Below are positions 8,610 to 62,454 of a DNA stretch of 64,000 nt, in pieces. The stretch lies in assembly GCA_029721435.1 (NCBI GenBank), contig CM056573.1, forward strand, positions 95,120,947-95,184,946. The letters run 5' to 3'. Numbering within the stretch: the first letter of the stretch is position 1; each line of letters opens with the position of its first letter. Position numbers and translations under genes: made by a program. A model generated the notes under the pieces. The model saw only the letters and a list, made by a program, of their open reading frames with translations. It had not been told where the DNA came from and made no database searches. Source of the DNA: Gymnothorax reevesii. Its lineage: Eukaryota; Chordata; Actinopteri; Anguilliformes; Muraenidae.

Positions 8610-8995
8610 GATTTGGACACCTTTCTGAAGCAGGGACTCAGACTTTGGCTGCACACACTTGCATTGCAATTGTAAAGTGATTAAGGGACAAAGAGACTTC
8701 CAATTACCAACTGTGTGGCCAATTGAAATTTTCAGTTGGCCACACAGCTGTCTTTTAGGTAATTGCATGCCAGGTGGAAACGCACCTGGGCCATCATGGT
8801 CTTGGATTTTACTTTACCTTTGTCTATTTGTTTATTTTGGCCCAAATAATCGATATCTCTGATTTTTTCGCAAACTGCCCTCTGGTATTGGTTTTCTGGA
8901 CCTCTGAAGATTTTGCCTGTAGGGGGTGCTTTTCAAAACATGCTGCAGAAAAATCCTTATCTCCGGCCCTATTACTGATACAGGTCTGGGGTTTG
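8610..8995. other. Intergenic; contains a perfect-looking hairpin
   Basis: No gene. A stem of 15 bp (14 matches) is formed by CAACTGTGTGGCCAA at 8708-8722 and its complement at 8736-8750, with a further outer pairing of CAATTACC (8701) with GGTAATTG (ending 8765). Probably a small foldback or MITE core. Confidence 0.5.
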
Positions 8996-14824: not shown

Positions 14825-14838
14825 TCTTGCTTTTGCAG
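14825..14838 (+). other. Splice acceptor (3' splice site) of vrtn coding exon
   Basis: A TCTTGCTTTTGCAG tract ends three bases... two bases (AC) before the ATG at 14841. The coding exon would begin at 14839. This matches the arrangement known for mammalian VRTN, where a non-coding first exon is followed by one exon holding the whole coding sequence. The first exon was not found in this window. Confidence 0.75.
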
Positions 14839-14840
14839 AC

Positions 14841-21559: not shown

Positions 21560-22385
21560 TACACGGAACAAAAATATAAATGCTCCAAGTCAAATTTTTG
21601 AGTTTTTATTTACAAAAAATGGAACCGCAATTCGTCAGCGAACAGCACTGTTCTCCAGCGTGCCAAGGGCCATCGAACGTGCGTTTGCCCATGCGAGGCG
21701 GTTCCGACGCCAGACAGCGGTGAGATCCAGACCACGGTGAAAACGCCAAGCGTGCAAGTTGGCTTCTCGCAGGCGGTTACAGACTGTCTGTGGTGTGATG
21801 CGTCTGTAGTGCAGACCAATGATCTCATCCGCTGTGTGTCGCTGATCTGAGCCGATCCCGCAGGTGGATGAGCCGGATGTAGCGATCTTGGGCTGGTGTG
21901 GTCACACGTGGCCGACGTGGATGAGGTCGATTTTCAGTTCTGCCCGTCTGTCGGAAACAAACTCTAAAATGGCCCATCGTCTGATTGTTGACTATCAGCT
22001 GCACAACGACTGCTCTGGTGGACATCCCTGCATCCAGCATTCCGATGGCACGTTCCCGCATGGCCTGAGACATCTGAGGCATGATGACTTTCGACAAAAT
22101 TTGACATCTTGAGGTGGCCTTTTATTGTCCTCAGTATAAGGAATGTCTGGGTACTGCTCCATTCTGTCTGATCACCGACTGGAAATCCCACACCCATGTA
22201 CTGAGAGAAATCACTGCATCACTGAGCAAATGCTCACTGATGGAGAGATGGATTAAAAAATGGTACACAAATCAAGATAAATATCCCTATTGTTCAAGTA
22301 AAAGTCAGCATATGCTCACTTAGCGTTGTTAACTCCATGTGGCATCAATATTTGACATGAGGCGTTTATATTTTTGTTCAGTGTA
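21560..22385 (-). mobile_element. Tc1-like element, copy D (internally deleted, non-autonomous)
   Basis: The ends read TACACGGAACAAAAATATAA at the left and the complement ending ATATTTTTGTTCAGTGTA at the right. The 826-bp length is about half that of an autonomous Tc1. A second copy with the same internal deletion is split across 52131-52319 and 61823-62454. Confidence 0.85.
21620..22082 (-). pseudogene. Tc1-like transposase pseudogene, N-terminal half (copy D)
   Basis: From an ATG at 22082 the frame reads MPQMSQAMRERAIGMLDAGM, then the helix-turn-helix and the PRRPRVTTPAQDRYIRLIHL linker, i.e. the bipartite Tc1 DNA-binding region. It shifts frame after RDRLRSAT, continues as RRITPQTVCNRLREANLHA and reaches the VLFADE position of the first catalytic aspartate (degenerate). 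The rest of the catalytic domain is absent because the element is internally deleted. It could not catalyse transposition, although terminal-repeat binding cannot be excluded from an ancestral copy. Confidence 0.8.
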
Positions 22386-25330: not shown

Positions 25331-25673
25331 CCTCTTCAGCTGGGTGGTTGTAATGTTCTGGAACAAGGAATCCGATTTTAAAAAGTAATGCGGTGATACC
25401 TCTAGCTTTCAGATTTTTGACTAAGTCCCGCGGTGGGTGACCAATTTGTCATTTACCTGTAATACGAGTCCCGGGCTGCAAACGGATAGTCAAAAAAAAT
25501 TACGTCCTATCCACAAAAACCTGACCACTTCTCTTTAACCTTTGTAGAAAAATGTCATAAGATAAAGGACAGGTGTAAAGGGGAATTCCAAACGACTTAG
25601 AAAGACAACCGCGCTAGAGAATCCAAATGCACTTACACTAAGAATCGTAGTCATCAGTCCCCTGCCAATCATA

Positions 25674-27256
25674 TACAACCCCAATTCCAAAATAGTTGGG
25701 ACAAAGTGTAAATTGTGAATAAAATCAAAATGCAATGACTTTCAGATCACATGAGCCAGTATGTTATTTACAATAGAAAATAGGTAACATTTGAAATGTT
25801 GAAACTGAGACATTTTACATTTTTATCCAAAAAATGAGCTTATTTCAAATTTTCTGGCTGCAACAGGTCTCAAAAAAGTTGGGACTCTGGCAAAAAAGAG
25901 CTGAAAAAGCAATTAATATATAAGAGAATCAGCTGAAAGAATATTTAGCATGTAATTAAGATAACTGGCATCATGTAACATGATTGGCTAAAAAAGGGAT
26001 GTCTTGGAGAGGCTGAGTCACTCAAAAGTAAAGATGGCCAGAGACTCTCCAACCTTCAAAGGCTTGTGTAAAAAAATTGTGGAATACTTTAAAAACAATG
26101 TTCCTCAACATCAAATTGCAAAGGCTTTGAAGGCCTCATCATCAACAGAGCATAACATCATCAAAAGATTCAGAGAAACTGGAAAAATCTTGGTGCGTAA
26201 AGGACAAGGCCGATGACCTTTACTGGATGCCCATGATCTTCGGGCCCTCAGACACCACTGCATCACTCACCAGCATGATTCTGTCATTAACATTACTAAA
26301 TGGGCCCAGGAATACTTCAAGAAACCACTGTCTGTTAACACAGTCCACCGTGCCATCCACAGACACCACCTAAACCTCTCTCGCAAAAAGGAAGGCATTG
26401 TTGCGCATGATCCAGAGGTGCTGCTGTGTTCTGAGTGCCAGGCCACTTTTAAAATGGACTGTAGCAAAGTGACAAAGTGTCCTGTGGTCAGACGAGTTCA
26501 AATTTGACATTGTTGTTGGAAATCATGGGCGTCGTGTCCTCTGGACTAAAAAGGAGAAAGACCACCCCTCCTGTTGTCAGCATTCAGTTCAAAAGCCAGC
26601 ATCTCTGATGGTATGGGGATGCATTCGTGCATATGGTGTGCGACACTTACATGTTTTAAAAAGCACCATGAATACTTAAAGGTATATAAAGGTTTAAGAC
26701 CAACATATGCTCCCCTCCAAACAGCAACTATTCCAGGGAAGGCCTTGTGTATTTCAGCAGGACAATGTAAAACCACATACTGCAGCTATTATAACAGTAT
26801 GGCTTCGTAGCAGAAGAGTCCGTGTGCTGAACTGGCCTGCCTGCAGTTCTGATCTTTCACCGATTGAGAACATTTGGCGCGAAATTAAACGATAAGTCCG
26901 TTAAAGGAGACCCAAAACTCTCCAGCAGCTGGAAGCCTGTATTTTACAAGAGTGGGATAAAATTCCAATGGCTAAACTCAAGAAACTTGTCTCCTCAATG
27001 CCCAGACGCCTCCACTCTGTGTTAAAAAGAAGAGGGGATGCTATACCATGGTAAACAAGCCCTTGTTCCAAGTTTTTTGAGAACTGTAGCAGCTATCAAA
27101 TTTGAAATGAGCTCATTTTTTGGATAAAATTGCAAAATTTCTCAGTTTCAACACTTGCTGTTATCTCTGTTTTACTGTGAATAAAATACTGGCTGGTGTG
27201 ATTTGATTTTATTCACAATTTCACTTTGTCCCAACTATTTCGGAATTGGGGTTGTA
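25674..27256 (+). mobile_element. Tc1-like DNA transposon, copy B (1.58 kb)
   Basis: Full-length copy of the family at 6191-8609, inserted inside the piggyBac-like element. The ends are TACAACCCCAATTCCAAAAT and GGAATTGGGGTTGTA, abutting TA. The long inverted repeat includes AAAGTGTAAATTGTGAATAA and its near complement. Confidence 0.92.
26034..27054 (+). pseudogene. Tc1-like transposase pseudogene (copy B)
   Basis: The start MARDSPTFKGLCKKIVEYFK leads into the N-terminal helix-turn-helix (NNVPQHQIAKALKASS) and the RKGQGR linker, where a TGA replaces the next codon. The frame continues PLLDAHDLRALRHH and then degenerates in the [14 protein letters not shown] region. The catalytic segments QQDNVKPHTAA and SDLSPIENIWR (second aspartate and glutamate of the DDE triad) are legible in a later frame, followed by VLKRRGDAIPW and a stop. 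One nonsense change and several frameshifts make it inactive. It is the most complete of the three family copies in length. Confidence 0.87.
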
Positions 27257-35715: not shown

Positions 35716-36503
35716 ATCTTGGGAGCCTTCGAAAGTTGTTCGATGCTTTGGCATTGCCTGAAGATGATACGGCCAGTATGTAGAAGACGAAGGCCATCCA
35801 GTCACCAGATCTACGATTTGTCCTGGGTTATACAGTATATTTCGCAATTGAAAACACGGCGGTAACATTACATAGTTTTATTCGAATAAGCTGGCGGTAC
35901 AGCGTTTGGAAAATATATTGGTTTTGATACTGGTACGAAGGGAGGCACATGGCGGAAGCGAGTGCATTGGGGATTCTTATGCAGCTGGTCCAGCTGGCGT
36001 TTAGCGAATATGGCATAACGGTGGGAGGTATATCGAGAGATGACTTTATTTTCTTTCATGTCGAGAATACCTTCCAAATGTCACTCACGTAATGCGAGAA
36101 TCACCTGAACGCTTTTTATTTGAACGAAACGAAAACGTGGGTAACTGAGCGAATATAAAGGGTAAGACAATAATTCTTTAGCTTTGCCAAATAATGGAGC
36201 ATAAAAATTGTTGTTCAATCTCAATTCTTTCGTGTCATTTTTAAGTATGAAAAGATATAAAAAGAACACGGAAAAATGTCTCCACCCCCCTCAAAGGAGG
36301 GAAAAAAAAAAGTCTACTCTCACATTCAGCCTACTCTTTACATGTGTCACATCGGACATTTATACAGACCCAAGATGGCCGAGCTATTCTGCCGTCAGCG
36401 CTTTGGCCCAGCCCACGCGGCGTCCACTCTAGTTTTCTTATATCTCTGTGGGCGAAACAATTGTGCACGTTGGTACAGAAAGGGCGTTCCAAGAAATTAC
36501 GCG
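35716..36503. other. No gene recognised
   Basis: Flank between the hairpin and the left inverted repeat of the Mutator-like element. Short open frames only. Confidence 0.35.
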
Positions 36504-36573
36504 GGAAGGGTAATTTCTTTTCCTACGTTAGTTGAGTGTATATCCAAAAAGTGGGTGTGGCCTGCCTTATTTG
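36504..36573 (+). repeat. Left terminal inverted repeat of the MULE
   Basis: 70 bp, paired with 46424-46494. Outermost bases GGAAGGGTAATTTC. The first exon's ATG lies only 20 bp inside this repeat, so the promoter probably lies in or next to it. Confidence 0.72.
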
Positions 36574-37972
36574 GAATAAGGTAGCCGCTATAATGTCCTG
36601 GATCGAAGAACACATGACCTATGAACAGAAAACGTGCGATCAGCTCGTAAGTTAGGCTACGTAGGGTTCGATTTCATAGATTGAAGTCTAATATCGAGTG
36701 TTTCGGCAATATATACCTGAAATATTCCTACAGCATGGAGGAATATCCAGAAATAGCGGTAGGTTGAGTCATAATTTCAGTGAGCAGCAATGAATAATTG
36801 TTGTCAGTGTCCATTAACTAATTCCCTATGGAATACTTCATACAAAATTGTCGCGTTTGTATGGAATACTTTTCCCGAAAATTACACAATTTAAAGTATT
36901 GAAGTACAGGTGGCCCATGACTGCGATCGTCAACTGATTTTGTGTTTTCATCGGACTGCGAATGGCCATCCACGCCGATGAATGCTGAATGTCAATGACA
37001 TTGACAACGCGGTTTTATAGTCCAAATGTGTGTTACGTTTTTATCAGCATCATCATAGTAGCCTATTAGTAAATGATTAAAAAGTCAGATATCTTAAGTT
37101 CTAGGAATACGCGCAGGCTATTATAATGTAATCATATGACCATAATTAAATGCGACACAGGCACACATACACATGCATTCATGTGTAGATATGCCTAATA
37201 TGTGGCTATAGGCATAATCTAATATCTAGTGGCAGTGTATGTTAAGTATTTGATTGCTATATTACCTTATACGCAGTTGAGGTTTGTTCCAGCTGTGACA
37301 TGTGCACTATATGTTATTATTATCATATATCATTATTTAGATATTGTGATCTCAGTGTTTTTCACATAGATACGCTTCATAGCAGACGCCACTGCATGAT
37401 CATCATAGTGCAGTAGTTTTAGAAAATTTAGTTGTAAATGATGTAATGAACTATATTATACGCTTATATGAATAACTGTGTTATGTTATCTGAGAGATAG
37501 TTAAATCATATATAGATGTAGTAGACAAGTAGGGAATTGGGTGCGAAGTTGTGCATTTATTTGGTGTTTTGGTACGCTGTAATATGTGTAACAATATTGT
37601 GATGTGATGATGCTAGGAATCGTAGCATCATCATAGTATGGTGGTGGTTCTCTATGTACTATCGATTTCAACTATATTCTCTAAACACCCCATTCACCAC
37701 CTTTCATCCAAGTACTTCGGCTCAAGTCATCACTAGATGAAAATTTTTATCTCATATCAGAGAATATTTTCATCTAGTGGGCACTCGGGCGATATATTCT
37801 CTCGCATGATCATATTATATGAACGTATTATTAATGTATATTAAAGAAATTACGCTATCTCATCAAACATATAATTTCGCAGTCCAGTTTCTTAGCAAAA
37901 TGGACTTTATTGGCATCATTAGTTTCTTCCTGGGTTCACTAGGAATAACACATGAATATATATACACATTGT

Positions 37973-37975
<3 letters not shown>

Positions 37976-38025
<50 letters not shown>
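37976..38025. repeat. (TA)n microsatellite, about 50 bp
   Basis: An uninterrupted TA dinucleotide run lies directly left of the Tc1-F end; Tc1 elements insert at TA. Confidence 0.95.
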
Positions 38026-38026
<1 letters not shown>

Positions 38027-38747
38027 TGCATTTCAAATTATTATGCAAATGATAGTTTTCTCTGATTTTCCTAAATGGTCGATGCAACTGACAGTTAGTA
38101 TAATTTTCAAGTCATCAGCCATTAGAATATAATTCGAATTTCATTGAACAAACCTCCCAATGATAACAGTATTTTTTCAAAAATAATTTAAAAAAACACT
38201 CAAAATGCTCTGTTCCAAATTATAATGCACAACAGAGTTTTAAAACATTTTATTGGTTGTAAAGAACTGAAATGGTCATTTGTTGAATTTGCAGCATTAG
38301 GAGGCCATATTTATTGAAATTAAAAGCTATTTCAATCAAAAACATCTTAACAGGCCAAGTTACATGTTAACATAGGACTCCTTCTTTGACGTCACCTTCA
38401 CAATTCTTGCATCCATTGAACTAGTGAGTTTTTGGAGAGTTGCTGCTTGAATTTCTTTGCAGGATGTCAGAATAGCCCCCCAGAGCTGCTGTGCTGATGT
38501 GAACTGCCTCCCGCCCTCTCAGATCATTTGCTTGAGGCTCCAAAGGTTCTCAGTAGGGTTGAGGTCAGAGGAGGATGGGGGCCACACCATGAGTTTCTCT
38601 CCTTTTTTACCCATTGCAGCCAGTGATGCAGAGGTATTCCTTGCAGCATGAGATGGTGCATTGTCATGCATGAAGATGATTTTGCTACGGAAAGCACGGT
38701 TCTTCTTTTTGCACCATGGAAAAAAGTGGTCAGTCAGAAACTGTATA

Positions 38748-39030
38748 TACACTCAACAAAAATATAAACGCAACACTTTTGTTTTTGCTCCCATTTGTCA
38801 TGAGATGGACTCAAAGATCTAAAATTCATTCCAGATACACAATATTACCATTTTTCTCAAACATTGTTCACAAATCTGTCTAAATGTGTGATAGTGAGCA
38901 CTTTCGCTTTGCTGAGACAATCCATCCCACCTCACAGGTGTGCCACATCAAGATGCTCATCAGACACCATGATTAGTGCACAGGTGTACCTTATACTGCC
39001 CACAATAGAAGGCCACCCTGAAATGTGCAG
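38748..39030 (+). mobile_element. Tc1/mariner-type fragment nested in copy F
   Basis: Begins TACACTCAACAAAAATATAA and ACGCAACACTTTTG, a terminal sequence typical of fish Tc1/mariner elements and related to, but different from, the ends of copies D and D2. The interior contains CCACCTCACAGGTGTGCCAC. The right terminal repeat is missing and the junction is an ATCC microsatellite. Confidence 0.7.
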
Positions 39031-39056
39031 ATCCATCCATCCATCCATCCATCCCA
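39029..39056. repeat. (ATCC)n microsatellite
   Basis: About six ATCC units occupy the junction between the nested fragment and Tc1-F, and add WMDGWMDGW to a chance minus-strand reading frame. Confidence 0.9.
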
Positions 39057-40412
39057 GGGTTGCATGGCACTCTTCAGTAAACAAGACTGTTTGAAAATTA
39101 GTCTTCATGTATTTCTGGGCCCACTGGAGCCCTTTCTGCTTGTGAGCATTGGTTAGGGATGGCCGAATAGTAGGTTCATGTACAGCTGCAAGCCTCTGGA
39201 GGATCCTGCACCTTGAAATTTGCGGGACTCCAGAGGCACCAGCAGCTTCAAATACCTGTTTGCTGCTTTGTAATGCACCTGCTCTCTTAATCCAATGAAT
39301 TTGTCTGGCAGAAACCTTCCTCATTATGCCTTTATCTGGACGAACCCGTCTGTGCTCTGAATCAGCCCCAAATCTCTTCAAAGTACGATGATTACGCTTA
39401 GGTTTTCATGAAATATCTCATTTATTTCCTTGTCCAAGGCATTGCACTATTTGACACTATTTAACAGCAGAGAGATCCTTTTTTCTTTCCCATATTGCTT
39501 GAAACCTGTGGCCTGCTTACTAATCTGTAATATCCCTCTTCAGTAGTTTTCCTTTAATTGGGCTCACCTGGCAAACTAATTATCACTGGTGTCTGAGATT
39601 GATTTCAGTGATCCAAAGAGCCTTGAGACACAATGCCATCCATGAGTTTAATTGAAAAAACAAAAAATTAAATCTTTATGACACTTAAATCCAATTTGCA
39701 TAATAATTTGGAACTTAGGAAAGAAAGAAAATGTTATTTGATAATTGATTTCATCGGATTCTAATACACCGATTATATGTTTAAATCTATTCCTGGTTAT
39801 TGTACATATTTCAGGTTATCATGCCTGACAACCAGTACAGGGTCGAGGCTTTTGACATAGTTGAAGGGGGTTTTGAGGCCAAGGTGAGGCTTCCCATACA
39901 AAGTGAAGCAGAGTTTGAGAGGTGGCTGTCTGTTTGAAAACACCACCTTGACCACCTGGCGAGTGATGAGAACCTTCCCAAATGTGGGAACAAAGCTTGT
40001 CTACAAAACCGAACGCCGCTGCCACCATAACACCCTCCCAAAGAAATCTGCAGTTGGAGCCTACAGAGCTAAGCACACTGCGTGCAACAGCAGCCTTGCG
40101 TTATCAATCAAGTGCTCCTGTGACAATCGCAAGCAGAGTCGGTAAGCGGCTGTCTTCTTTTCCAGTCCTAATAGGGCTCACATGAGGTTTAACCAATACA
40201 GAGAAGGAACAAGCCGTGACCTTCCTATTATCAACTTTGCATTGGTATGAATTGCTCTATGTGTGCACTTACTTCGACTTCTTTCACAAACTATGATAGG
40301 CAAATAGTTAAGTGAATGCTAAGAACAAAGTAAAAAGAATTAATATGAATGCTCTATTCACTCTCAACTTGTAACGGTAGGGAATCTGAACTTCTATTCT
40401 GCCTGTGTGAAC

Positions 40413-41964
40413 TACAACCCCAGTTCCAGAATAGTTGGAACAAAGTGTAAATTGTGAATAAAATCAAAACGCAATGACTTTGAAATCACACCGGCCAGTA
40501 TTTTATTCACAATAGAATAGAGATAACATAGAAAATGTTGAAACTGAGAAATTTTTCAATTTTATCCACAAAATGAGCTCATTCCAAATTTGATGGCTGC
40601 TACAGGTCTCAGAAAAGTTGGGACATGGGCCTGTTTACCATGGTGTAGCATCCCCTCTTCTTTTTAACACAGAGTGGAGGCGTCTGGGCATTGAGGAGAC
40701 AAGTTTCTTGAGTTTATCCATCGAAATTTGATCCCACTCTTGTTTAATACAGACTTCCAGCTGCTGGAGAGTTTTGGGTCTCCTTTGACGGACCTTTTGT
40801 TTGATTATGCGCCAAATGTTCTCAATCGGTGAAAGATCAGGACTGCAGGCAGGCCAGTTCAGCACACGGACTCTTCTTCCACGAAGCCATGCTGTTGTAA
40901 TAGCTGCAGTATGTGGTTTTGCATTGTCCTGCTGAAATACACAGGCTTTCCCTGGAATAGATATCATCTGGAGGGGAGCATATGCTGCTCTAAAACCTTT
41001 ATATACCTTTCAGCATTCATGGTGCTTTTTAAAACATGCAAGTATCCCACACCTTATGCACTAATGCATCCCCATACCATCAGAGATACTTGCTTTTGAA
41101 CTGAACACTGATAACAGGAGGGGTGGTCTTTCTCCTCTTTAGCCCGGAGAACACGACACCCATGATTTCCCTCAAGAATGTTAAATTTGGACTCGTCTGA
41201 CCACAGGACACTTTGCCACTTTGCTACAGTCCATTTTAAATGAGCCTTGGCCCACAGACCACGGCGGCGCTTCTGGATCATGCTCTACAATGACTTCCTT
41301 CTTGCATGATAGAGTTTTAGGTGGCATCTGTGGATGGCCTGGCGGACTGTGTTTACAGACAGTGGTTTCTTGAAGTATCCCTGGGCCCATTTAGTAATGT
41401 CAATGACAAAATCATGCCGGTGAGTGATGTTGTGGCGTCTGAGGGCCCGAAATTCAAAGGCATCCAGTAAAGGTCTTTGGCCTTGTCCCTTATGCGCAGA
41501 GATTTTTCCAGTTTCTCTGAATCTTTCAATGATGTTATGCACTGTCGGTGATGAGACCCTCACAGGTTGTAGAGCCTCTGGCCATCTTACCTTCTGAGAG
41601 ACTCAGCTTCTCTAAGACATCCCTTTTATAGCTAATCATGTTACACACCTGATGCCAGTTAACTTAATTACTTGCTAAATGTGCTGAATGTTCTTTCAGC
41701 TGATTGTCTAATATAATAATTGCTTTTTCAGCCCTTTTTTGCCTGTTTGCCTGTGTCTCAATTTTTTTGAGACCTGTTGCAGCCAGAAAATTTGAAATTA
41801 GCTCATTTTGTGGATAAAAATGAAAAATGTCTGTGTCAACATTTGAAATGTTATCTATGTTCTTTTGTAAATAACATATTGCCTGATGTGATCTGAAAGT
41901 CATTGCATTTTGATTTTATTCACAATTTACACTTTGTCCCAACTATTTTGGAATTGGGTTTGTA
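40413..41964 (-). mobile_element. Tc1-like DNA transposon, copy C (1.55 kb)
   Basis: Third copy of the family at 6191 and 25674. Ends TACAACCCCAGTTCCAGAAT and, at the right, GGAATTGGGTTTGTA. It lies wholly inside the second intron of the MULE pseudogene, so it did not disrupt coding sequence when it inserted. Confidence 0.9.
40635..41585 (-). pseudogene. Tc1-like transposase pseudogene (copy C)
   Basis: From the ATG at 41585 it reads MARGSTTCEGLITDSA and stops; compared with copies A and B about 60 bases coding for EYFKNNVPQ.QIAKAL are deleted. The rest is well kept: [53 protein letters not shown] with the first catalytic aspartate, [22 protein letters not shown] with the second aspartate, SPDLSPIENIWR with the glutamate, and a regular VLKRRGDATPW end, although split over three frames. 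All three catalytic residues survive but the first helix-turn-helix and frame continuity do not. Confidence 0.87.
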
Positions 41965-42314
41965 TATTTTATATATATCCTAAGAGCATTAGCAATCATA
42001 TGCGGTGCATAGGCATGCCCATATGCAGTTATGCAGCATTTGATTAAGAATTGGTTTTTTCGCACTGCATTGAGGAATATTTCATTGTTCGCTTGTTTTA
42101 CAGATCAAAAGATCCCTATATCAAGCAGGGCTTTCCATCAGCCCTCCGCATAAAGTGGGTGCATAACCACCGAATAGATAGTGCTGATGCTGTGAAGCAC
42201 AGAGATGTTTCAGAAGAGATCAGGGCAGAAATACGACCTGCAGGTTGAAACTGATGATTACCCCAGGTTACCTGCAGACAGGTCAATTTGCCCTGATATT
42301 GGATTCTGCTATAG

Positions 42315-42837
42315 GTGGGAAATTAGAAGAAATACACCATGTATGTTTTACTAATGTTACAGTTTCCATTTTCCATGTTCCTTTTTTCAAGCTTCTTTTG
42401 GGATCATTCAAATATTCCGTATGGGGGGGCGTGTCAAGACCTATGTGTGTGCCTTTTCCCAAGGCAGCCCTTAACAAAGCAATTAAATGTCCAAAATGAC
42501 CTTCATCTTTGGAAAACACTTTTATATTTATAAAATATTTGATTAGGGCAAATATAAATTGTTTTTAATTACCAATTAAATGATAAATCCATTGCTATAG
42601 TTATTTTTCTGGAAATTATATCTCAAATTTATCAACTCAGACTTGTGCGTATGGCTTACAGGGCGGAGCGGGTATAGTGAGGCATGTATGCCATTTGTAC
42701 AGGGAGGAAAGTAGGGTTTTAAAAGGGGAAAATTTTGTGTACATACTAATTGAATGATCCTTTTACACATTGAGATCTCATGCAGTTGACACCCTGGCAT
42801 AGCTTATTTGAAAGGACGTACAATGGTGTGTTTGTTG
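42315..42837. other. MULE pseudogene interior; catalytic exon not found
   Basis: In this gene family the DDE catalytic region should lie between exon 3 and the SWIM exon. I see no open frame matching it here, so it appears deleted. Confidence 0.45.
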
Positions 42838-43115
42838 TGTTCTGTGTGTTCTGTTTTGTGTGTCTGGTTAGTCAATTTTAGGTTTTTATTATTTTGGTGA
42901 TGTCAGTTTTTTAGTCCATGTCTTAGTGTTCACATTTCATTCCTCTCCTGTGTAGTCCAGTCCACGTTTTAACCATGTACTGTCTTTGCTTCCTCCCCGG
43001 TCGCGTCTTTGTTTGTAGCAGTTTCTGTGTTAATTGATTGTGACACTGTTTCGGGTGATTCAATGGATTCTGGGTTTCAGCCTTCCTTCTGTTCTCGTTT
43101 GCTAGTTTCCCCTTG
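42838..43115 (-). repeat. Dispersed repeat K, fragment in reverse orientation
   Basis: CGGGTGATTCAATGGATTCTGG and the flanking stretch match, as reverse complement, the segment of repeat K around 50620-50660. It lies where the MULE catalytic exon is missing, so its insertion may be tied to that loss. Confidence 0.55.
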
Positions 43116-44382
43116 CTAAAGCCGATAGACCCCATCTCTTGAATCTTTTCAAGAGTATAGTGTATGCCAACACCGAAGCTGACCTGCAGGCTAGACTGAA
43201 GACAGCAACTGAAAGTGATTCAGTTGCCCTGAGATACCCTCAGTATACAACGCGAGTGAGGGAAATCTATCAAAGGAAAGCTTGCTGGGCAGTGTCGATG
43301 AGGCAAGCTTTGAGGATCCATGGTAAGAACACCACTGCCTATTGCGAGGCAACCATGCGCATCCTCAAAGATAAGATTTAGCATCGCCTGAAGGCATATA
43401 ACATCTGCCAGTTAGCAGACTTTATCTCCACGCGCTACGAGAACTATAACATCCAAAAGCTTGTAGATGTTTCTAACAATCACATGAGCAGTTTCATGCT
43501 GGCCTCCCGGTTCAATGCATCTGCGAAAGATGTAGACCCATCCAACATTTCCCAAAGTAGTGAGGTGGAATACGCTGTGAAAAAAAATGACTCCACTTCC
43601 TACGAAGTCAATATGGAAGTTGGGATGTGTTCTTGTGGGGTGGGTAAGACTGGTGCACCATGCAAGCACCAGGCTGCAGTAATGCAGACGTTTGGACTGG
43701 ATGCTAACAACTTTTTGCCAGTCCAATCTGCAGCTCTGCGACAAAACTATTACAGGCTGGCCACGGGATGCGAAGCCGATGACGATTGGTTTCAGCCGCT
43801 TCACAACACCAATGCGGTGGCTTTCGAACGTACCCATCAATCTGACAATGACCCAGACTCATCTGTGTCTGACGCACCAAGTGCTGGCCCGTCTGCAGCC
43901 GATGGTTTTGCTGGCGACACATCAAGTGCGTTTGCCCCCTCGCTGTTATCATCTGCGATGGAGGTTGCAGATCAGTTCCATGCCTATTTAGTATCAAAAT
44001 TGAACAGTGCTGATGAAGAAGACAGTAAAGCAGCACTATCATTTACAAAATCATTCAAAAACATGTCAACTGAGAGCCATAAATTGAGTGCTCTTCATTC
44101 TTTCGGTTGGTATAATGGAGCTGTACTTGCTGTGGGGCGAAAGCTGAAGGCCAAAGCACTCCTAACTTCGGCAAAAATTGGAGTGCAGCCTACAGCGGAC
44201 GTTTGACTGCTGGCCGTCCGGCAAAAGCCTCCTTTACATCGGAGCATGGCTACAGCAAACGGAAGGCAACGTCTGTTCTCATGCTGCAGCATTGGAAAAA
44301 GGCGCGAGTGACTGCACCACATTCGTTGTCAGAGTGCATTGCAAGGAACACCATGCTGGGTAGCAACCACAGTGCGAAATAA

Positions 44383-46423
44383 TGAAAAGAGTAGAATCAA
44401 AATTCAAAAGTTAAGGATATGCCATACATTATCAAAATATTTTGGATGAACCATCTTGTAAAATTTGGCATTCAATGCAGTCATTCATTGTTTCCTTTGT
44501 CTAAATTGGGCAAATTACTTATTTTGGCTTAGGCTAGGGGTATCAGGAGGGGGGTGACGCAGTAGTTGCTGACCACTTTATCCCTAGAAATTAGTCTTAA
44601 TTGGGCACATTACTTATTTTGGCTCAGGCTAGAATATTACTGACTCACACAAAAACTTCACACCAATATATCTGTGAATAGTTTCACCCTGCATGTTTGG
44701 AAGAGGGCGGATATAACTTTTACTTTTCAGGTTGATAAGTAAGCGTAAGTAAGTTTCACCTGGACCAGAGGTCTGGGGGAATCGCGAACATAAACACAAA
44801 CATACACCCACACCGAGTTAGGGATTGCACCCGCTCTGTAGGGATGGTGGCAGTCGGCTTTGGTAGATAGGGAATAGGAATAGTGTAAGTACATAGGTGA
44901 CATACAACATTTCTGTATCTGTAAATAGTTTCAAACTGTCTGTTTCGTATGGGAAGTTTGGGGGAAACTTAGTCAGACAGGGGACCATATTGCATTTTAG
45001 TTTTTTCCAATTTCTGGCGATGTATGTTATGTTTGTTGTAGGTTAGCGTAATTGATTACTGTAAATCTTTGCTGCATTACGTATTCCCAGAATCACAAAT
45101 GTAGTGGATTATTTTTAAATTTGATAACAAGCATAAAAAAATCAAGATAATCATGTAAAATTTTCAGTTTGTATTGTAATTGTAATTCCAAATATATTTG
45201 TAGTTGCAGCTATTATGTCATCTATCCAACTCTGCTGTGGTTCTCTGTGATTCAACTGTCTTGAGGTATATGGAAAAGAACACCATTCGTACCCTGTTCC
45301 AAATTTATGCATCTGTATTATACATCAGTTAGTTCATTTCACCTTGGATGCACGCTGTCATTTAGTACTGTAGTGTAGATACTGACAAAATTCCCTCTTC
45401 TGTAAGTGTTTAGGAGTCATACTCAGGCCCACATTTCATAGTAGCATACTGCAGTTATGTTCTCATTTGCATACACACTGCATAAGAGATAAGGCTGTTG
45501 GCCTGCACTCCAGGGGCACCGCACACACAATACAGCCCCTACTCTTTCCTATGTGCCACTGTGTATCACTATGAAAATCTAGTGGCCTTCAGAACTGGAA
45601 AGGGACAGACAGCAGCTACTTGTCCAGGTGATGCATCAACTGATCTTTGGGTCACCGGAGTTGGGGTTAGGAGGCCATAATACGAGGAGTCGCATTCAAA
45701 GGTTTCATGTTCCAATTCAACAGGGCTGCATGGTTGTAAAATTTTTATTGTGTTTCATTATTGATTTTTCCAATAATTAAATGTTGGAATCGGAAGTTGC
45801 AAATATTTCTGCAAAATAATCTGCTTAATCACATCTCTTGTAGGCCCTCAAAAAGGTGTATGTTATCATTCTAGTCTCCTTCAGAATATGTGATTGATTT
45901 TCCCAGTTAAAAATCAAGTGTGAACTTTTATCTAGGACCGTGCTAAATTTTCAAAGTTGGATGTGCATATGGCCAAGGTACAGGTGGGGGGAGGGGGGTA
46001 TAATGAGGTGCGTATGAAATACGTACTGGGGGGCAGTGTCCAAAAAAGCCAAAATTTTCCTTACGTACTGTATTAATGATAATTTTTAGTGCCGCGTAAT
46101 TTCTTGATATCAGTTATCGTATCATTCAGTTCGTATGTCCAGAAAGAGGGTGTGTGAGATTGCGCGTACTCTGCACGCAGCAGGGAGAGTTTTACGAACA
46201 TTCACTTAGCAAAAAATATCCTGATAAAAGCGAAAACAGTATACCTTTTTATACAACATTTTATTACAATAAACAATAGGCATGTTTGAAATGCTGAAAA
46301 TACCGACATACTCCTACAAAAGAACTTAACATCGAATCAAATGCAAATCGGCGTATGCAGCTCTCGCGGCGTATACAGGTTAGATTGGAACTCTCTCCAC
46401 TCTGGCGTCTCAGTCCTCATATA
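44383..46423. other. 3' non-coding part of the MULE; no gene recognised
   Basis: AT-rich sequence with no open frame of interest. A direct repeat of about 35 bp (TTACTTATTTTGGCT.AGGCTAG) occurs near 44515 and 44611. Confidence 0.4.
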
Positions 46424-46494
46424 CAAATAAGGCAGGCCACGCCCGCTTTTTTGGATATACGCTCAACTAACGTAGGAAAAGAAATTACGCTTCC
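46424..46494 (-). repeat. Right terminal inverted repeat of the MULE
   Basis: 71 bp, the inverted partner of 36504-36573. Just outside, 46500-46562 holds GGGTGCTGAGGGTGCTG and a short hairpin GTAAGGAGGGT with ACCCCCTTAC. Confidence 0.72.
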
Positions 46495-47668
46495 GGGAAT
46501 AGGGTGCTGAGGGTGCTGCACCACCCCCTACTGGGGTAAGGAGGGTACTGAGCACCCCCTTACTGAGCAGAAGAAAAAGTTTTTATCATTACTAATTCCA
46601 CCATCTGAACAATTTAAAAATATCACACAATGAAATTCAAAACGACTGATGTATTTAATTGAACGTGAGTAAAGCGGACCACCCCTTCAACGCCACAGCT
46701 TTTAATAAGAAAAGCCGACACAGTTAGTCTAGAAAATAGCAGCAGTATTATCTGTTATACGCAGAAAAAAAAGGTTCAGCTTGGGAGCTCCTCAGAAAAA
46801 AAGGAACAACAATACCCCAGTCTTGTGCGATAGCCCCAAAAGTGAGAAAGAAAGGCTTTCTCACCGACCAGTCACAGCATCTGCTCTCAAAACACCTCAA
46901 TATGAGAGTCAGCACTTTGTACCAGAGGATTAACAGTTGTGGGCTCCGCAGTATTTGGCTTCAGGTGCCCGAATTAGGGAGGAGGTGGGGCGCCAAGGAG
47001 TCATAAGTCAGATGCCTGTTAGCAAAAGCATGAGCTTATTTTTTCTTTCTGGTGTGAGGAATAGGATTCAGGTACACCAGCAGACTTTAATAATTGTACA
47101 TGTAATAAAGTGAGGATTTACACAAGCATTTATCCAGTGCGGTCCAATAAACTTGCAGGGATGGTATTAGAGAACTTGTTAAAGAACTGAAAGCTGAAAA
47201 AAAAAAAAAACTGTGATGTCCTTGGAAAGAGATCACACCATTCTAAAGGTTATTCCTTTAAGGAATCAGAACTATGACTTTCATTATATAAAAATTCAAA
47301 AAAATTAATTCCACACAATCATGCAGTTTGTTTGTTTATTGTTGGCAGACTTCTGAAGACCCACTTTTCCTGCGATATGGAGCAGCACATATTTTAATTA
47401 ATTCAGTTTTTAATGTATATTATTCCGTGACAACACACTGGGACTTCTTACAGCAGGCTCAAGGAGAGAGCTAGCGCGAATTTTATAGGACAATAAAAAA
47501 CAATAAATTACCAATAACTTTCAAAGAAAGACGTGCATTGGAAATTATAATGAGAACATGGCTCAGAATGCTTAAGCATGCAACTGCAGGCAGTGTGCAG
47601 CTCAGTACCATCCACCAGATAATTTCTGTTATTACTGAAATGAATGAATACATTGCTGTACTAGTCAA
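46495..47668. other. No gene recognised
   Basis: Flank between the MULE and the next Tc1 element. Short frames only; no RNA gene or repeat ends were identified. Confidence 0.4.
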
Positions 47669-52426: not shown

Positions 52427-52635
52427 TCTCAGCTGCTTGAGTAACACCTGAGTAGCAATCTAGCTAACTTGTAAACTAGCCTAAACGTTTTTTTATTTTC
52501 GTCTTTCCAACTCTTGTTTTCTTTTTCTATTCTTTTTGTCATCTACTTTTCATCGCCATTCAAACTGGAATACTATCAATCGACCTGGAAGCCCTATTGG
52601 ATTATTTCAATGAGTTATTTGACAGAATCGACAAT

Positions 52636-53463
52636 ATGAATAAGGAAATCAACATAGACCGCACTGAACCAGCGAAAGCCACCAGTTCATCCACACCTTT
52701 CAGTAAGAGACCCCGTCCAGATTCACTCGATAGTACAGGTACATCTCCATCCCCGAAGCCACCATGCTGCACAACCACCGAGGTAAGCGACATTCTCATT
52801 TCCATCGAAAATAAACTCACCGGACTGGACGCCAGAATCGCACTCATTGAAGTGCTACATAAGGAATTCCAGTCACGGCGCTACAGCCTTGAATACAGTC
52901 AAGAACAGATAGACACTCTCACTAAGGTAAACAAATCTCTGCAGCATTCCGTCAACACGCTGACCGACCAACTTGCATTTACCACCGCCGACAATAAAAC
53001 CATGAAAGAAACCATCCTCGATTTACAAGCACGCAGTATGAGAGACAATCTCGTTTTCTCCGGCATTCCCGAACAACCGACTGAAGACCCAGAATCATCT
53101 GTAAAGGAATTCATGTCTAAACAGCTCAAACTACCCGCAGAAACTGTCAACAATATCACATTCCACCGCGTTCATCGTCTCGGACCAAAAAACCATCTTA
53201 GCAATAGACCCCGGCCCATCATTGCGAAATTCGAGCATTTTAAACAAAAACAACTAGTACAGCGACAAGGCAGGCAGCTCAAAGGAACGGACTTCGGACT
53301 CAATGATCAATACCCTAAAGAAGTCATGCAAAGGCGCAAACAGTTATTCCCCATCCGAAAGAAGGCAATGGCTGAAGGAAAAAAAGCAATCATCTCACTT
53401 GACAAATTATACATAAATGGACAGTTATACCGAGATAAAGATGTAACCCCCTGGCTTTTCTGA
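52636..53463 (+). CDS. L1 ORF1 protein (RNA-binding chaperone)
   Basis: ORF1p coats L1 RNA and acts as a nucleic-acid chaperone in the retrotransposition particle. The ATG at 52636 is the first in frame and gives 275 residues; the frame is open further upstream, but only non-ATG codons are available. The order fits L1 ORF1p: a Ser/Pro-rich, probably disordered N-terminus (TSSSTPFSKRPRPDS), a heptad-rich coiled-coil region (about residues 65-140, ISIENKLTGLDARIALIEVL), then an RRM-like domain (RDNLVFSGIPE to HRVHRLGP) and a C-terminal domain (RPRPIIAKFEHFKQKQLV, FPIRKKAMAEGKKA). It has no stop or frameshift. Its partner ORF2 lies 878 bp downstream on the same transcript. Confidence 0.88.
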   Translation: MNKEINIDRTEPAKATSSSTPFSKRPRPDSLDSTGTSPSPKPPCCTTTEVSDILISIENKLTGLDARIALIEVLHKEFQSRRYSLEYSQEQIDTLTKVNKSLQHSVNTLTDQLAFTTADNKTMKETILDLQARSMRDNLVFSGIPEQPTEDPESSVKEFMSKQLKLPAETVNNITFHRVHRLGPKNHLSNRPRPIIAKFEHFKQKQLVQRQGRQLKGTDFGLNDQYPKEVMQRRKQLFPIRKKAMAEGKKAIISLDKLYINGQLYRDKDVTPWLF

Positions 53464-54341
53464 ACCATCCTACTATCACACATTCTCATACCCACTGTTC
53501 ACATAGCTACTCTCACATACAGATAAAATACTCTGTCATGCAGTGTCTATCTCCAAAATCCGAAGACACCACAAGTAAATATAAATATGTGTATATGTAA
53601 TGATTTAAATGATGTGAATATGATAATGGACTGTATAAACTATGATTGTTATAATTGTTTAGTATTGTACTTATGTATAGTATCATATTATTATACACAC
53701 TATCATATATCAATATTATATTATCATTATTATTATTATTATTATACTATTATTATTAACTATTGTATCTGTGCTATGTATCATATTCATATTCAGTATA
53801 TAACACAATCATATATACATCATCATATTATTATCATGATATACATCATGATATTATCTTATCATTTATTATACTAATTTTTTAAAGAATAAATATTGTA
53901 CTTATACCAGTATATACTGTAGCACTATACTACATATATCCACTGTATTGTTGATGTTGTTGTTATTATTATTATTATTATTATCAATGTTATTATTGTA
54001 ACAACTCCCATACATACATTATTGCACCTAGTCTCACTGTAGTCTACTTACTCTAATCCTTACCACTCTTTTGAATGTTGTTCTGTGTACTCGCTGTCTG
54101 TGTTTCTGTGGCAATATTTGTTTGTTTGTCTGTCTCAGGTTGGCGTTTTATGTTTTCAGGTCAAACTCACCAACACACTGATCTACAGACAAATTCATAT
54201 ACACTTGCACTCGCATACAAACAGGCGAGTGCAGACACACACACACAGACACACACACATGTATGTGTATATGTATGTATATTTGTATGTGTATGTGTAT
54301 ATATATGAGTATTAATGTTAGATATTTAGTATACCCTTAAA
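53464..54341 (+). other. L1 inter-ORF spacer, microsatellite-laden
   Basis: 878 bp of low-complexity DNA: ATT/ATA runs (53720-53760, 53955-53985), ATCATAT-type repeats, and a CA/TG tract with TATG repeats (54230-54305). No coding signal. The spacer in human L1 is only about 60 bp. Confidence 0.75.
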
Positions 54342-57300
54342 ATGTCATCATTAAAATTTCTATCTTGGAATATTTGTGGAATTGGCTCCCAGGCAAAAAA
54401 ATTACGAATATTCACCCAATTATCCAAACTTAAAGCAGACATATGTTTACTTCAAGAAACCCATCTCTCTGAATCAAACCACAACAAATTAATATCAGCA
54501 CATTACAGTCAAGTGTTTTCAGCTTATTACAACACTAAACAAAGAGGAGTTTCCATTCTTATTAGCAACAAAATCACATTTATCCACAATTCCACCATTA
54601 CAGATCCAGAAGGACGATTTATCATTATTAATATTTCAATCGACAATAAACCGGTCACAATTTGCAATATTTACGGCCCCAACACAGACGACCCATCTTT
54701 TTTTCAGACCTTTTTCTCTTCTATCTCAGCTAACTGCCCAATTATCATAGGAGGCGATTTCAATACAGTCATCAATCCACTAATTGACAAAAGCAATACT
54801 TCACATAACAGGCGCACCTGGCAGTCAACAGAAACAATAAAACAGTTCATGGGCGATTTTGGTCTTGGTGATAGTTGGCGGCTTCAACACCCTTCAGTAA
54901 GGCAATACTCTTTTTTCTCATCGGTTCATCAATCATACTCACGCATCGATTACTTCTTGACAAGCAACTCAATTATACCAAATATTTCAGATTCAAAGAT
55001 ACACTCAAAAATAATCAGTGACCATGCTCCAATAACATTCACATGGAATAGAACTCCTTCACATAAACATAACACCAGGTGGCGCTTTAATACATCACTC
55101 CTCACAGACCCTGATTCCAGTAACCTCATTAAAAAGGAGTGGGCATCCTTCCTAGAAATAAATGATTCCCCAGAGTCATCTCCGTCCATCGTTTGGGAAA
55201 CAGGAAAAGCAGTCTTAAGAGGAATCATCATTTCATACTCCACTTACAAAAAAAAGAAACAACAAGAGCAAGAATCCGATCTGGAACAAAAAATTCAACT
55301 CCTCGAAGGCATTAATGCAAATAACCCAACTGAAGACACACAGAATGAATTAAGAAAATATAAATCTCAACTGAACGAAATTACAAACAAGAAAATTCAA
55401 TTTTTAATTCATAGACTCCGTCAAGAACACTTCCACCATAATAATAAATCTGGTAAATACTTATCAAACCAAATTAAACACAACAAAGAAAAAGCAACCA
55501 TTTCTGTCATAAGGGACTCAACAGGGAAGCCATCACAATCACCTGAAGAAATAAACAGCATTTTCAAAGAATTCTATACCAACTTATATTCGTCTAAAAA
55601 GGACCCAGAACAGTTAGATATTGACTCATTTCTCAGCAGCATCAACCTACCACAGCTCACCCAAGATCAAATTACAACACTTGAATCACCAATAACGGAT
55701 AAGGAACTCGCTAGCGCCCTCAAACTTATGCCCAATAATAGAACACCGGGACCTGACGGCTTCCCTGCTGAGTTCTACAAACACTTCTGGTCCATTCTTG
55801 CCCCACTATTCCAAAGAGTAATAACCGAAATAAAACAGAACTCAAAATTACCAGCTAACATGAACATTGCCACAATATCGCTTCTTTTGAAACCAAACAA
55901 AGATCCATCACTTCCTACCAGCTATCGCCCCCTATCACTGCTCAATGTTGATCTGAAAATCATCACTAAAACACTCGCTCACAGAATGGAAAAAATAATC
56001 TCATCCATAATTCACCCTGATCAGACTGGCTTTATTAAAGGTAGACATTCATCCAGTAACACACGCAGACTTTTTAATATAATGGATCACTCAGCACAAA
56101 AGGACATACCAACCGTCATTATCTCTCTAGATGCAGAAAAAGCTTTTGACAGGGTTAACTGGTCATTTCTCAAATCAACAATGCAAAAATTTGGCTTTGG
56201 GGAGTCATTTATTAACTGGGTGAAAATTCTGTACACTGCACCCACAGCCACAGTCATCACTAATGGACTAACTTCACAACGATTCACATTACACAGGGGG
56301 ACTAGGCAAGGATGCCCACTTTCTCCATCTTTATTCACCATTTTCATTGAACCATTAGCAGCAGCCATCCGCCAAAACGTCAACATTCAAGGATTCAAAA
56401 CACAAAATGAACATCATAAAATCAGTCTCTATGCTGACGATATTTTGCTTTTCTTACAAAAAACCCCACTCATCACTACTAGAAACAATCAGAGTTTTTG
56501 ACACATTCTCTAAAATCTCCAATTATTCAATAAACTGGCATAAATCCTCAATCTTACCTCTGCAACCTAACAGTTGGGATGTGGCAGCATTCACCCCACC
56601 AATTCCTTTATGCACTACTCACATTACTTATCTAGGTATCAATATTTCTCCCAGGCTGTCAGAATTATTCAACCTTAATCACGCCCCCTTGCTTAAGACA
56701 ACAACTGACAACCTCCTCCGCTGGATGAATTTACCTCTCTCAATAACAGGCAGAATTGCCACAATAAAAATGACCATACTTCCCAGAATTAATTATTTAT
56801 TTTCTATGACTCCCACCCACCCTACTACTTCCTGGTTCAAATCATTAGATTCAATCATTATCAAATTTTACTGGAAAAACAAGACCCCAAGAATTAAATT
56901 AACAACCTTACAAAAACCCAAAGCACAGGGAGGACTTGCAGCACCAAATTTCTTTTACTACTACATTGCAAATCAGCTTCAGTACTTATTCAAATGGATT
57001 CATCCCCACCAATCAGATAATACATGGATGAATATAGAACAGACAAACTGCAAAAATATCCCCATTTCAGACTTACCATTTCTCAGTCAGTCCATCAAAC
57101 ATTACCCCTGCTTTAAGACATTCACAATATCAGCAACTCTGACGGCCTGGTGGAAATTCCACAAAATCACAAACTCCACGTTAACTTTTTCAAAATTCAC
57201 TCCGATTTGGAATAACCCCGATTTTCTTAGTAGTAAAAAACCATTACATGTCTTCACATGGTCAGAAAGAGGGATCACTCACTTATCACATACGACTCAA

Positions 57301-58107
57301 AATAATACACTTGTTTCATTCACTCATCTGGTCCGGGAGCACGGCATCAGGAGCAATCAGTTTCTAGAATACTTACAGCTGAAATCATCAATTCAAGCTA
57401 CCTGTAACATTAAATCCATCAACCTTGACTTACCTCCATCAGCCTCAGACCTAATCAACATTCATTCAACGAAAAAACTCCTCTCAAAAATATATAGAAT
57501 AATTTTAACATCAGATAAAACAATTTCTATACCAACAGGAAAATGGGAAAGAGATCTGCTGATTGCTCCTGATGCTGACTTCTGGAACCAAATCTGCCAA
57601 AATATTTATTTCATGACTAAAAATTCAAACTTACAGTTGATTCAATACAAAATACTTCACAGAACCCACTACACTGGCCAGAAAATGTTTAAAATGGGCT
57701 TCACATCAGAAACATGTTCTAACTGCACCCAAAACCAACCAGACACTTATATCCATGCTATTTGGCACTGTACACCAATTCAACAGTTTTGGGAAAAGGT
57801 CACAAATTCACTCTCTGATCTGTTTGGCTGTCACATCCCTCTGTCCCCCCCACTCTGCTTACTAGGTGACACAACAGTTATAAATTTGACAAGATCAAAA
57901 AAAAAAATTCTTCTAATAGCCCTAACTGTCGCCAAGAAAACAATCCTCATGAACTGGAAATCCAAAAGCAATACAAGCATCACACAATGGAAGAATTATC
58001 TGATGGATCACATTACTATGGAAAACACAAGATCTGACCCCACAGAACATGATATATCAGAATCCCCGTCCATCTGGACCCCTCTCATCAACTTCTTACA
58101 AACATAA
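54342..58107 (+). CDS. L1 ORF2: endonuclease and reverse transcriptase, one frameshift
   Basis: ORF2p nicks target DNA and reverse-transcribes the L1 RNA. From the ATG at 54342, an APE-type endonuclease occupies about residues 1-235 with its signature residues in place: N10 (SWNICG), E39 (LLQETHL), D139 and N141 (GGDFNTV), D227 and H228 (SDHAPI). The reverse transcriptase follows, with YRPLSLLN, SLDAEKAFDRV (D597), RQGCPLSPSLF and YADD (D699, D700). A stop at 56501 ends this frame; the +1 frame continues directly (LETIRVFDTFSK...). The shift maps to a six-A run near 56461-56467, one base too many. The continuation (to 58107) includes YLGINISP, the thumb region and a CCHC motif (CSNC..H....C) near residue 1125. 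Apart from this indel the ORF looks complete. Confidence 0.9.
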
Positions 58108-60420: not shown

Positions 60421-62454
60421 TTAAGCTGTACTGCTTCATAGTTCTAACAGTGGTAATTTAGTGTACTTATGAAAGGAGTGATTATTTAGCAATACACTTT
60501 CTTCATATTACATGTATGTGGTAGTACTTTTGTACATATGTTTTCATTTCATTTTCCAGTTATGTTAAAATGCACAAATACTTGATTGTCAGAAAGATAT
60601 AAGTTTATTTAGCCTATGGAAACACATTGTTACAGCACGTTATAGTCAATCTGAGCAGGGATTTTTTGTTCAGTACTGCTTGGTAGAACATATCTTCTTC
60701 TTAATCCTGACAAATATGTATTTCATCAGTATTACATTGCAACAGATTTTTAGTCTAATTCATTTACAGAGCAATAGGGAGGCCTTCTCCCTTGACTCAT
60801 ATAGAAATATGACACAGTTAAAAACATTCTAGTGTTAATGTTATAACAAGCGCAAATTCGCAATAGCTACAACCTCATACATGCATGCATTCATAAAATT
60901 TCCAAACATAGAGGTTGGCGACATCCGGGCAATGCTAAGAAGGAAATGCAATAACAAGAGCTATGTCAAAGTTAATCAGTAATTATTTTTATAGTAAATT
61001 TATGGCTGTTTTTGTTTTATTTTCTTACAAACTTACTAATGTTACTGGAACATTGTTTAAGTGCATGGATACCTCTTTTAAGAGGTTTTATGTTTTAATA
61101 AATAAATTTCATTTTGTTTTTTCAATAAATTGAAGTGGATGTCTTTCATTGAACTGATTAGCACACTTTTAGTGTACTAGTGGTACCATAAATTAAGTAG
61201 ATTGAAGTGAATGTGGTTACATTATGTATACTTCTGTACCACTAACACAGTGCACTATACAGTACTAATACTTGCACCACCTACTGCACTTCAAATACAC
61301 TTCTAAACCATACATCATAGTACAATGATATTATACTTGAAGAACAAACCTTTTGATGCTTTATTTGTGATATTACTTCACTATAAATGCATTTTTATTA
61401 ACATAGTGCACTTGAAAAGTAATACAAATAGTCAGAGAGTGCACTTGATCTAAACTTGAAGTATGATAAGTTTAATAATAAGCATTAAAAATACAATCCT
61501 ACACAACTATCAATTTAATTGTAAGACCTTTTAAGTATATTTTGAACATACTGGTGGTCTAATACAATTGTACTGCAAGTGTATTTCAAATCAGGTGACA
61601 GTGTACTTGCGGTGGTATACTTTAGTACACTTAAAGTTTGTAAAAAGTTGTTCCAATTTAACATACTATTTACACTTCAAGTGTACTGAAGTGGTACACA
61701 AGTAGTACTCAATGACTGCTTGAGCACACTTAATTACACATAAAGGGGGTGAAAAAAAGCATACACTATACTTAGTACAGTCTGTAAAAGTATAATTCAA
61801 GTATAGTATTTTTTCACCTGGGCGCTGAGCGTGCAAGTTGGCTTCTCGCTGGGGGTTATGGACTGTCTGTGGTGTGATGCGTCTGTTGTGCAGACCAATA
61901 GTCTCATCCGCTGTGCGTGTCGCTGATCTGAGCCGATCCCGCAGGTGGACGAGCCGGATGTAGCGATCTTGGGGTGGTGTGGTCACACGTGACGACGTGG
62001 ATGAGGTCGATTTTCAGTACTGCCCGTCTTTCGGAAACAAACTCTCAAATGGCCTATCGTCTGATAGTTAACATTCAGCTGCACAGCGACCGCTCTGGCA
62101 GACATCCCTGCATCCTGCATGCTACGTTCGCGCATGACCTGAGACATCTGAGGCATGATGACTTTCGACAAAATTTGACATTTTGGGATGCCTTTCATTG
62201 TCCCCAGTATAAGGAATGTCTGGGTACTGCTCATTCTGTCTGATCACCGACTGGAAATGCCACACCCATTTACTGAGGAAAATCACTGCTTCACTGAGCA
62301 AATAATCACTGACAGAGAGATGGATTCAAAAATGGTACACAAATCAAGAGAAATCCCTATTGTACGAGTAAAAGTCAGCACATGCTCACTTAGAGTTGTT
62401 AACTCCATGTGGCATCAATATTTGACATGGGGCATTTATATTTTTGTTCAGTGT

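Follow-up and report, generated by a model that had tools for sequence, protein, structure and literature searches.

The 64,000-nucleotide stretch of Gymnothorax reevesii DNA analysed here (the window; contig C1, 95,120,947-95,184,946) carries between 36508 and 46490 a Mutator-like element (MULE) that has long inverted ends, encloses the remains of a plus-strand gene with a SWIM zinc finger, and is flanked by a 9-bp target duplication, the left copy of which is interrupted. From comparison with its sister copies in the host assembly (2.17 Gb, 421 contigs) we conclude with high confidence that it is a dead copy of a once-autonomous MULE family in a vertebrate, probably a fish, with a transposase encoded in three coding exons. 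The features on which this conclusion draws are as follows.

36508..46490, plus strand: full extent of the Mutator-like element in the window, 9,983 bp; ends set by aligning further copies from the genome
36508..36574, plus strand: left terminal inverted repeat, ~67 bp; inverted-repeat search and copy comparison
46424..46490, minus strand: right terminal inverted repeat, ~67 bp; inverted-repeat search and copy comparison
36487..36507, no strand: left target duplication TTCC/GGGAA (36487-36490, 36503-36507), interrupted at 36491-36502; copy alignment and 12-mer comparison
46491..46499, no strand: 9-bp target duplication, right-hand copy, TTCCGGGAA; copy alignment
39821..40141, plus strand: coding exon 1, with a frameshift near 39933; donor CG/GTAAGC
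42104..42314, plus strand: coding exon 2, with ~56 bp lost near 42227; acceptor TTTTACAG, donor TATAG/GTGGGA
42315..43117, plus strand: what is left of intron 2 as far as the junction of the 2.7-kb deletion (5-bp microhomology); copy comparison
43113..44382, plus strand: remainder of coding exon 3, from about 43113, lacking approximately its first 187 codons, with a TAG at 43379-43381 and a frameshift near 44200
43622..43690, plus strand: SWIM zinc finger, PF04434, residues 81-103 of the open reading frame 43382-44206

The inverted ends (GCGTAATTTC...) are ~67 bp long, and those of the window copy are ~93% alike; the terminal inverted repeats of MULEs are often long. Two arm pairs (36504-36550/46448-46494, 47 nt at 96%, and 36546-36573/46424-46451, 28 nt at 93%) bear out the statement of an earlier note, made on this DNA from its letters, that inverted repeats lie ~10 kb apart; however, the outermost bases of the limits it gave, 36504 and 46494, belong to the flanking DNA, and the true ends are 36508 and 46490. 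Between 36 and 47 kb the other inverted pairs come from Tc1-like ends and TA runs, apart from two that are short and weakly matched (28 nt at 79%, 21 nt at 81%), and a scan of the window against Rfam at gathering thresholds gave no match. In aligned copies the element boundary is a dinucleotide GC ahead of GTAATTTC, which reads GG at the left end of the window copy. When the host assembly was searched with the left end, which the right end also resembles, at least 40 places matched, and since 40 of 80 candidates were scored this copy number is a lower bound. Five of these end copies (L013, L023, L028, L029 and L030) have ~25 bp of outer flank in common (GAGCTGCAGCCC...), and L039 and L040 have another common flank; such copies lie inside, or have been extended into, other repeats.

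Comparison with sister copies, in which splice sites were read from sequence, gives the family gene three coding exons. The earlier note had proposed at least four, with matching splice sites: the GT-AG intron joining exons 1 and 2 holds, but the third ‘acceptor’, just before 43118, is a deletion junction with 5-bp microhomology, which rules out four or more coding exons, and the exon 3 acceptor is instead seen in the copies on contigs C9 and C4 as TTTTTTCACAG. The SWIM gene on the plus strand between the inverted ends is itself confirmed (PF04434, E 6.4e-5). What the note had missed is that this copy is dead, and that about a third of its 10 kb (~3.2 kb) is nested Tc1-like DNA. A deletion of 2.7 kb, with the microhomology TTGCT at its junction, runs over intron 2 and approximately the first 187 codons of exon 3; with it both aspartate motifs have gone, while the glutamate that would be the third catalytic residue and the SWIM finger have been kept. 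In all, five lesions disrupt the window gene (a frameshift each in exon 1 and exon 3, the loss of ~56 bp from exon 2, the TAG and the core deletion).

Eight host loci match exon 3 at 82% identity or more, on C4, C9, C1 (the window), C17, C13, C11, C21 and C8 (a 60-residue piece), those on C8, C11, C13, C17 and C21 having been read only in part. Exon 3 of the C4 copy is a single open frame of 621 codons, with a frameshift in its exon 2, and the C9 copy has both ends and carries ~6.5 kb inserted in the SWIM region, with a frame change directly before the insert. The ratio of nonsynonymous to synonymous change (dN/dS) against C4 exon 3 is 0.29 for C9, 0.42 for L050 (C13), 0.59 for L052 (C11), 0.63 for L049 (C17) and 1.54 for the window copy (421 codons), values that come from few changes (18 in C9, 37 in the window) without a significance test, so that only their contrast is usable; at the sequence level they would be signs of purifying selection, and of past function. 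In addition the family has derivatives with the same ends and no working gene (L031, L032, L033 and L034). Two of them, L031 on C4 and L032 on C5, are 7.24-kb copies in which part of exon 1 runs straight into the end of exon 3; over 7,269 columns the two share 98.9% identity, yet they lie on different contigs within separate, different 9-bp duplications, which means that a gene-poor derivative was inserted at least twice, most simply with a transposase from another copy acting in trans. The earlier note had offered repeats without the gene elsewhere in the genome as grounds for giving up a MULE. Such copies were found, but they are ordinary and do not refute it, because they arose from this same element by internal deletion and were inserted separately.

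The target duplications were assessed by comparing the direct 9-bp flanks of seven two-ended copies. The note had proposed to look for such duplications, of 9-11 bp, in further copies; of a size typical for MULEs (8-11 bp), they were present, here of 9 bp and in four of the seven: the flanks match at 9/9 for L018/L020, 8/9 for L015/L002, 8/9 for L008/L019 and 7/9 for L016/L003. In the window the left flank reads TTCC, then AAGAAATTACGC, then GGGAA, and the right flank TTCCGGGAA; the intervening bases, 36491-36502, exactly reproduce the last 12 bases at the right terminus of the element, and without them the duplication is perfect. Since the same 12-mer, even with one mismatch, occurs nowhere in the 53,850 window bases outside the element region, a chance origin is negligible. 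Judged from this comparison, the 12 bases are probably a scar from the excision of a second copy that had inserted into the left duplication. They might instead be filler, templated on the right end of the element while a break was being repaired, an account that we regard as possible but somewhat doubtful: the 12-mer stands at the right end and again inside the element and so could have served as template, and in a study of the Aedes aegypti element Muta1 (PMC5225508) excision was ~90% precise when duplications were present, whereas the same source reports that in yeast up to 13 end bases were occasionally left when the donor site had no duplications, which, with the negligible odds of chance, speaks for a scar. 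As between cut-and-paste and copy-out movement, the excision scar would favour the former; excision was assayed for Muta1 (PMC5225508).

The assignment to Mutator draws on a sister copy. The 621-codon exon of L037 scores 33.2 bits against the Pfam MULE model (PF10551; cut-off 27.6) and 22.0 against SWIM (cut-off 19.6), and 39 of 41 relatives likewise exceed the MULE cut-off; the profile search suggested by the note thus succeeded for the sister exon on both models, and for the window pieces on SWIM. Residues D211, D279/D280, C300..H303 and E397 (numbering of protein P0006) are present at 90% or more in the 41 relatives, and would supply the DDE (aspartate, aspartate, glutamate) and CxxH residues in an RNase H fold that are expected of a MULE, their catalytic roles being presumed. 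The predicted fold of a relative finds its best match in the ISCth4 transposase (PDB 6xgx, 6xg8), and a sequence search against solved structures returned only epiregulin entries, taken as chance.

Could the element be a SWIM-bearing transposon from some other superfamily, such as the fish element Zisupton or another KDZ element, that merely resembles Mutator? SWIM fingers occur outside MULEs, and the window copy alone shows only this finger; KDZ/Zisupton elements have their own type of transposase and a Ulp1 protease domain, and the sister exon above the Pfam MULE cut-off is strongly against such a placement, as are the relatives that share this match, the ISCth4 fold and the 9-bp duplications, which leaves it very improbable. 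A MULE-derived gene taken over by the host, the origin presumed for ZSWIM1/3, that by chance sits between an unrelated inverted repeat could draw on a weak match to PF21056 (ZSWIM1/3; E 0.0053, under the cut-off) and on the signs of purifying selection between copies, but these ends also delimit other copies, part of which have duplications, and deletion derivatives were inserted separately; that the window gene is broken and present in several copies speaks strongly against it too, and we consider this account equally remote.

Several observations do weigh against our conclusion that this is a dead copy of a MULE family. The C4 copy, which has the full exon 3, shows only one recognisable end within 19.7 kb, no wholly intact copy was present among those examined, and the MULE profile had no match in the window pieces searched apart, where SWIM matches, because most of the catalytic core is deleted there. 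Compared directly, the window flanks agree at 6/9, reaching 9/9 once the 12-bp insert is set aside; C9, the gene-bearing copy with both ends, has flanks agreeing at 2/9 and L040 at 3/9 (by eye), that is, no duplication, and part of the flank matching is expected from a common target core. Moreover, the gene model is one predicted from sequence, and any past activity is presumed. Even so, the sister-exon MULE match, the common ends and the 9-bp duplications support the suggestion of the note that this is a vertebrate MULE rather than an unrelated inverted repeat.

Taken together, we propose that the product of the three-exon gene was a transposase of ~800 residues that combined a DDE core of RNase H fold with a SWIM zinc finger. 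This enzyme may have recognised the ~67-bp inverted ends and inserted the element at staggered cuts in the target, a presumed chemistry that would leave 9-bp duplications at C-N-G-centred sites; the window copy has lost most of its catalytic core through microhomology deletion, and derivatives may have moved by transposase supplied in trans. The direct basis for this scheme is the ends, the duplications, the target bias, the gene structure from copy comparison, the relatives and the derivatives inserted at different places.

The landing sites are strongly biased. Six bases ahead of the end there is a C in 32/34 flanks, and four bases ahead of it a G in 28/34; when flanks are merged by common neighbouring sequence C-N-G is found in 26 of 29 groups, against 5.0% in the surrounding DNA; among the other offsets tested in the 40 bases before the end none reached 8/29. 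Because these 29 groups still contain both ends of some copies, one flank was kept per insertion, by dropping the second ends L004, L010, L015, L016, L019 and L020, together with L039 and the second end of L040, and L023 and L028-L030 as sharing flanks with L013. C-N-G then stands at the centre of the 9-bp target in 20/22 insertions, where 5% is expected, and a core centred in nine bases agrees independently with a 9-bp stagger. The wider consensus NYSCSGSRN is complete in only 7/22 insertions, and self-complementarity is clear only for the C-G pair (20/22), the next pairs outward giving 8, 9 and 6 of 22. The preference is therefore for a strong C-N-G core set within nine bases that are G+C-rich and loosely symmetric. 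CpG enrichment beside insertions was not established (median observed/expected 0.75 near, 29 flanks, and 0.55 far, 27 flanks; paired P 0.065).

The closest described systems are Muta1 and Muta5 of Aedes aegypti, which share with the window family (PMC5225508) a DDE transposase, inverted ends, 8-9 bp duplications and gene-less derivatives; Muta5 likewise has a three-exon gene, and Muta1 carries 12-bp subterminal repeats that recall 12-mers inside the element described here. However, Muta1 has no apparent target preference, in contrast to the strong C-N-G centre seen here, and Muta5 measures 3,496 bp in a mosquito, against ~10 kb with nested Tc1-like DNA in a vertebrate (PMC5225508). In the table of Dupeyron et al. 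2019 (PMC6446971), 9-bp duplications and SWIM fingers are common in MULE groups such as Phantom and Curupira, as here. That survey saw limited chordate evidence for MULEs, took the vertebrate reports in Repbase to be misidentifications, was unable to link the ‘MuDR’ entries of Repbase from zebrafish and mammals to MULE transposases, and listed a real absence of MULEs from vertebrates as an open question (PMC6446971). Our text searches of open-licence literature (titles, abstract beginnings and passages) found no description of a fish MULE. The window family is direct evidence against such an absence, in that one vertebrate genome joins a transposase matching the MULE model, common ends, 9-bp duplications and inserted derivatives; its value lies in the host, and its sharp target preference offers a handle on Mutator site choice. 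Newly noted here are the biased landing sites, the 12-bp interruption of the left duplication, and a grouping with echinoderm Mutators as opposed to the largest fish group. ISCth4, which we take to be an IS256-group element, is bacterial and only 14% identical over the aligned part, the likeness being one of predicted fold; IS256-type elements move by copy-out.

This grouping comes from a tree of 42 rows (the C4 exon, three other host loci and 38 hand-chosen database proteins), in which the window family falls with crinoid, sea-cucumber and unnamed proteins (nine rows, support 100/99), its inner placement beside Antedon being weaker (94/89). Among its nearest relatives are the echinoderm MULE proteins P0005 and P0007 (Holothuria), P0006 (Antedon) and P0018 (Apostichopus), 49-61% identical to the sister exon. 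A ten-row fish group stands apart, other fish rows lie elsewhere, and forcing the window family into the ten-row group was rejected (p-AU, from the approximately unbiased test, 7e-28, for a group defined after the tree was seen). Horizontal entry may be one reading of this tree, whose unnamed rows may include fish, and old lineages with losses are another; as even the closest protein reaches no more than 61% identity, across two thirds of the exon, the data do not show a recent transfer. We would venture only tentatively, as a picture more likely wrong than right, that true Mutators exist in several vertebrate lineages, that an ancestor of the host received the window family from marine invertebrates, out of a lineage related to echinoderm MULEs, and that, unlike Muta1, it targets palindrome-like C-S-G cores favouring CpG-rich, promoter-like DNA. 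The relatives include proteins from 18 genera that we take to be ray-finned fish, which makes the vertebrate-MULE question directly testable, and some related database proteins are already labelled, for example, ‘MULE transposase domain-containing’. One annotated fish protein, P0012 (Myripristis murdjan), joins a MULE transposase to a BTB/POZ domain (BTB E 4e-19) and is possibly a host fusion gene.

Further host places at 26-58% identity to exon 3 are other MULE lineages, some with open frames of more than 600 residues; three of them (C7:23285746, C1:18479825 and C3:159333549) have frames of 620-668 residues and, in the stretches read, no convincing ends, and the C3 lineage pairs with the ribbon worm Lineus (100/100). 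Around three other host MULE loci (L054-L056) no convincing inverted ends with 9-bp duplications were found in the stretches read, L056 having one apparent end pair inside what reads as an exon and L055 one weak pair; this test was not exhaustive, as it required a perfect duplication, and its control found L032 but missed L031 (8/9).

Inside the window element lie the following additional features.

40410..41969, minus strand: Tc1-like element (PF13358 DDE_3) inside intron 1, also in the C4 and C9 copies
38031..39713, minus strand: second Tc1-like element, upstream of exon 1, with 20-bp ends and a further repeat of ~280 bp within it; assigned to Tc1 on a weak match (E 0.058) and by reading
37844..37855, plus strand: terminal 12-mer repeated inside the element, in inverted orientation to the near end
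46094..46105, minus strand: terminal 12-mer repeated inside the element, in inverted orientation to the near end

Window positions 39715-42227, comprising exon 1, intron and Tc1-like DNA, match C4 and C9 contiguously at ~94%, and since the same intron holds the same Tc1-like DNA in both, the family multiplied with this passenger; the second Tc1-like element is common, at least in part, to L031, L032 and C9. The internal 12-mers, at least one of which is retained in each of six further copies that were read (L031-L034, C4 and C9), are possibly extra binding sites for the transposase. They had also hinted at a composite of two small elements, which was rejected, as the inner copies have no adjoining target core and their likeness to the ends stops after 12-13 bases.

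Elsewhere in the window, three related Tc1-like elements (6187-8613, 25671-27188 and the one at 40410-41969) are mostly 86-93% alike in aligned pieces, and an interspersed repeat pair (21744-22384 and 61823-62454) is 88-96% alike in pieces. An open reading frame of 711 residues at 14754-16889 (plus strand) is presumably the vertebrate gene vertnin, in support of a vertebrate host, and the Tc1-like elements are of a type that occurs in fish. Plus-strand reading frames at 52480-58107 are of the long interspersed nuclear element type, encoding by eye an endonuclease and a reverse transcriptase, the second in two overlapping frames.

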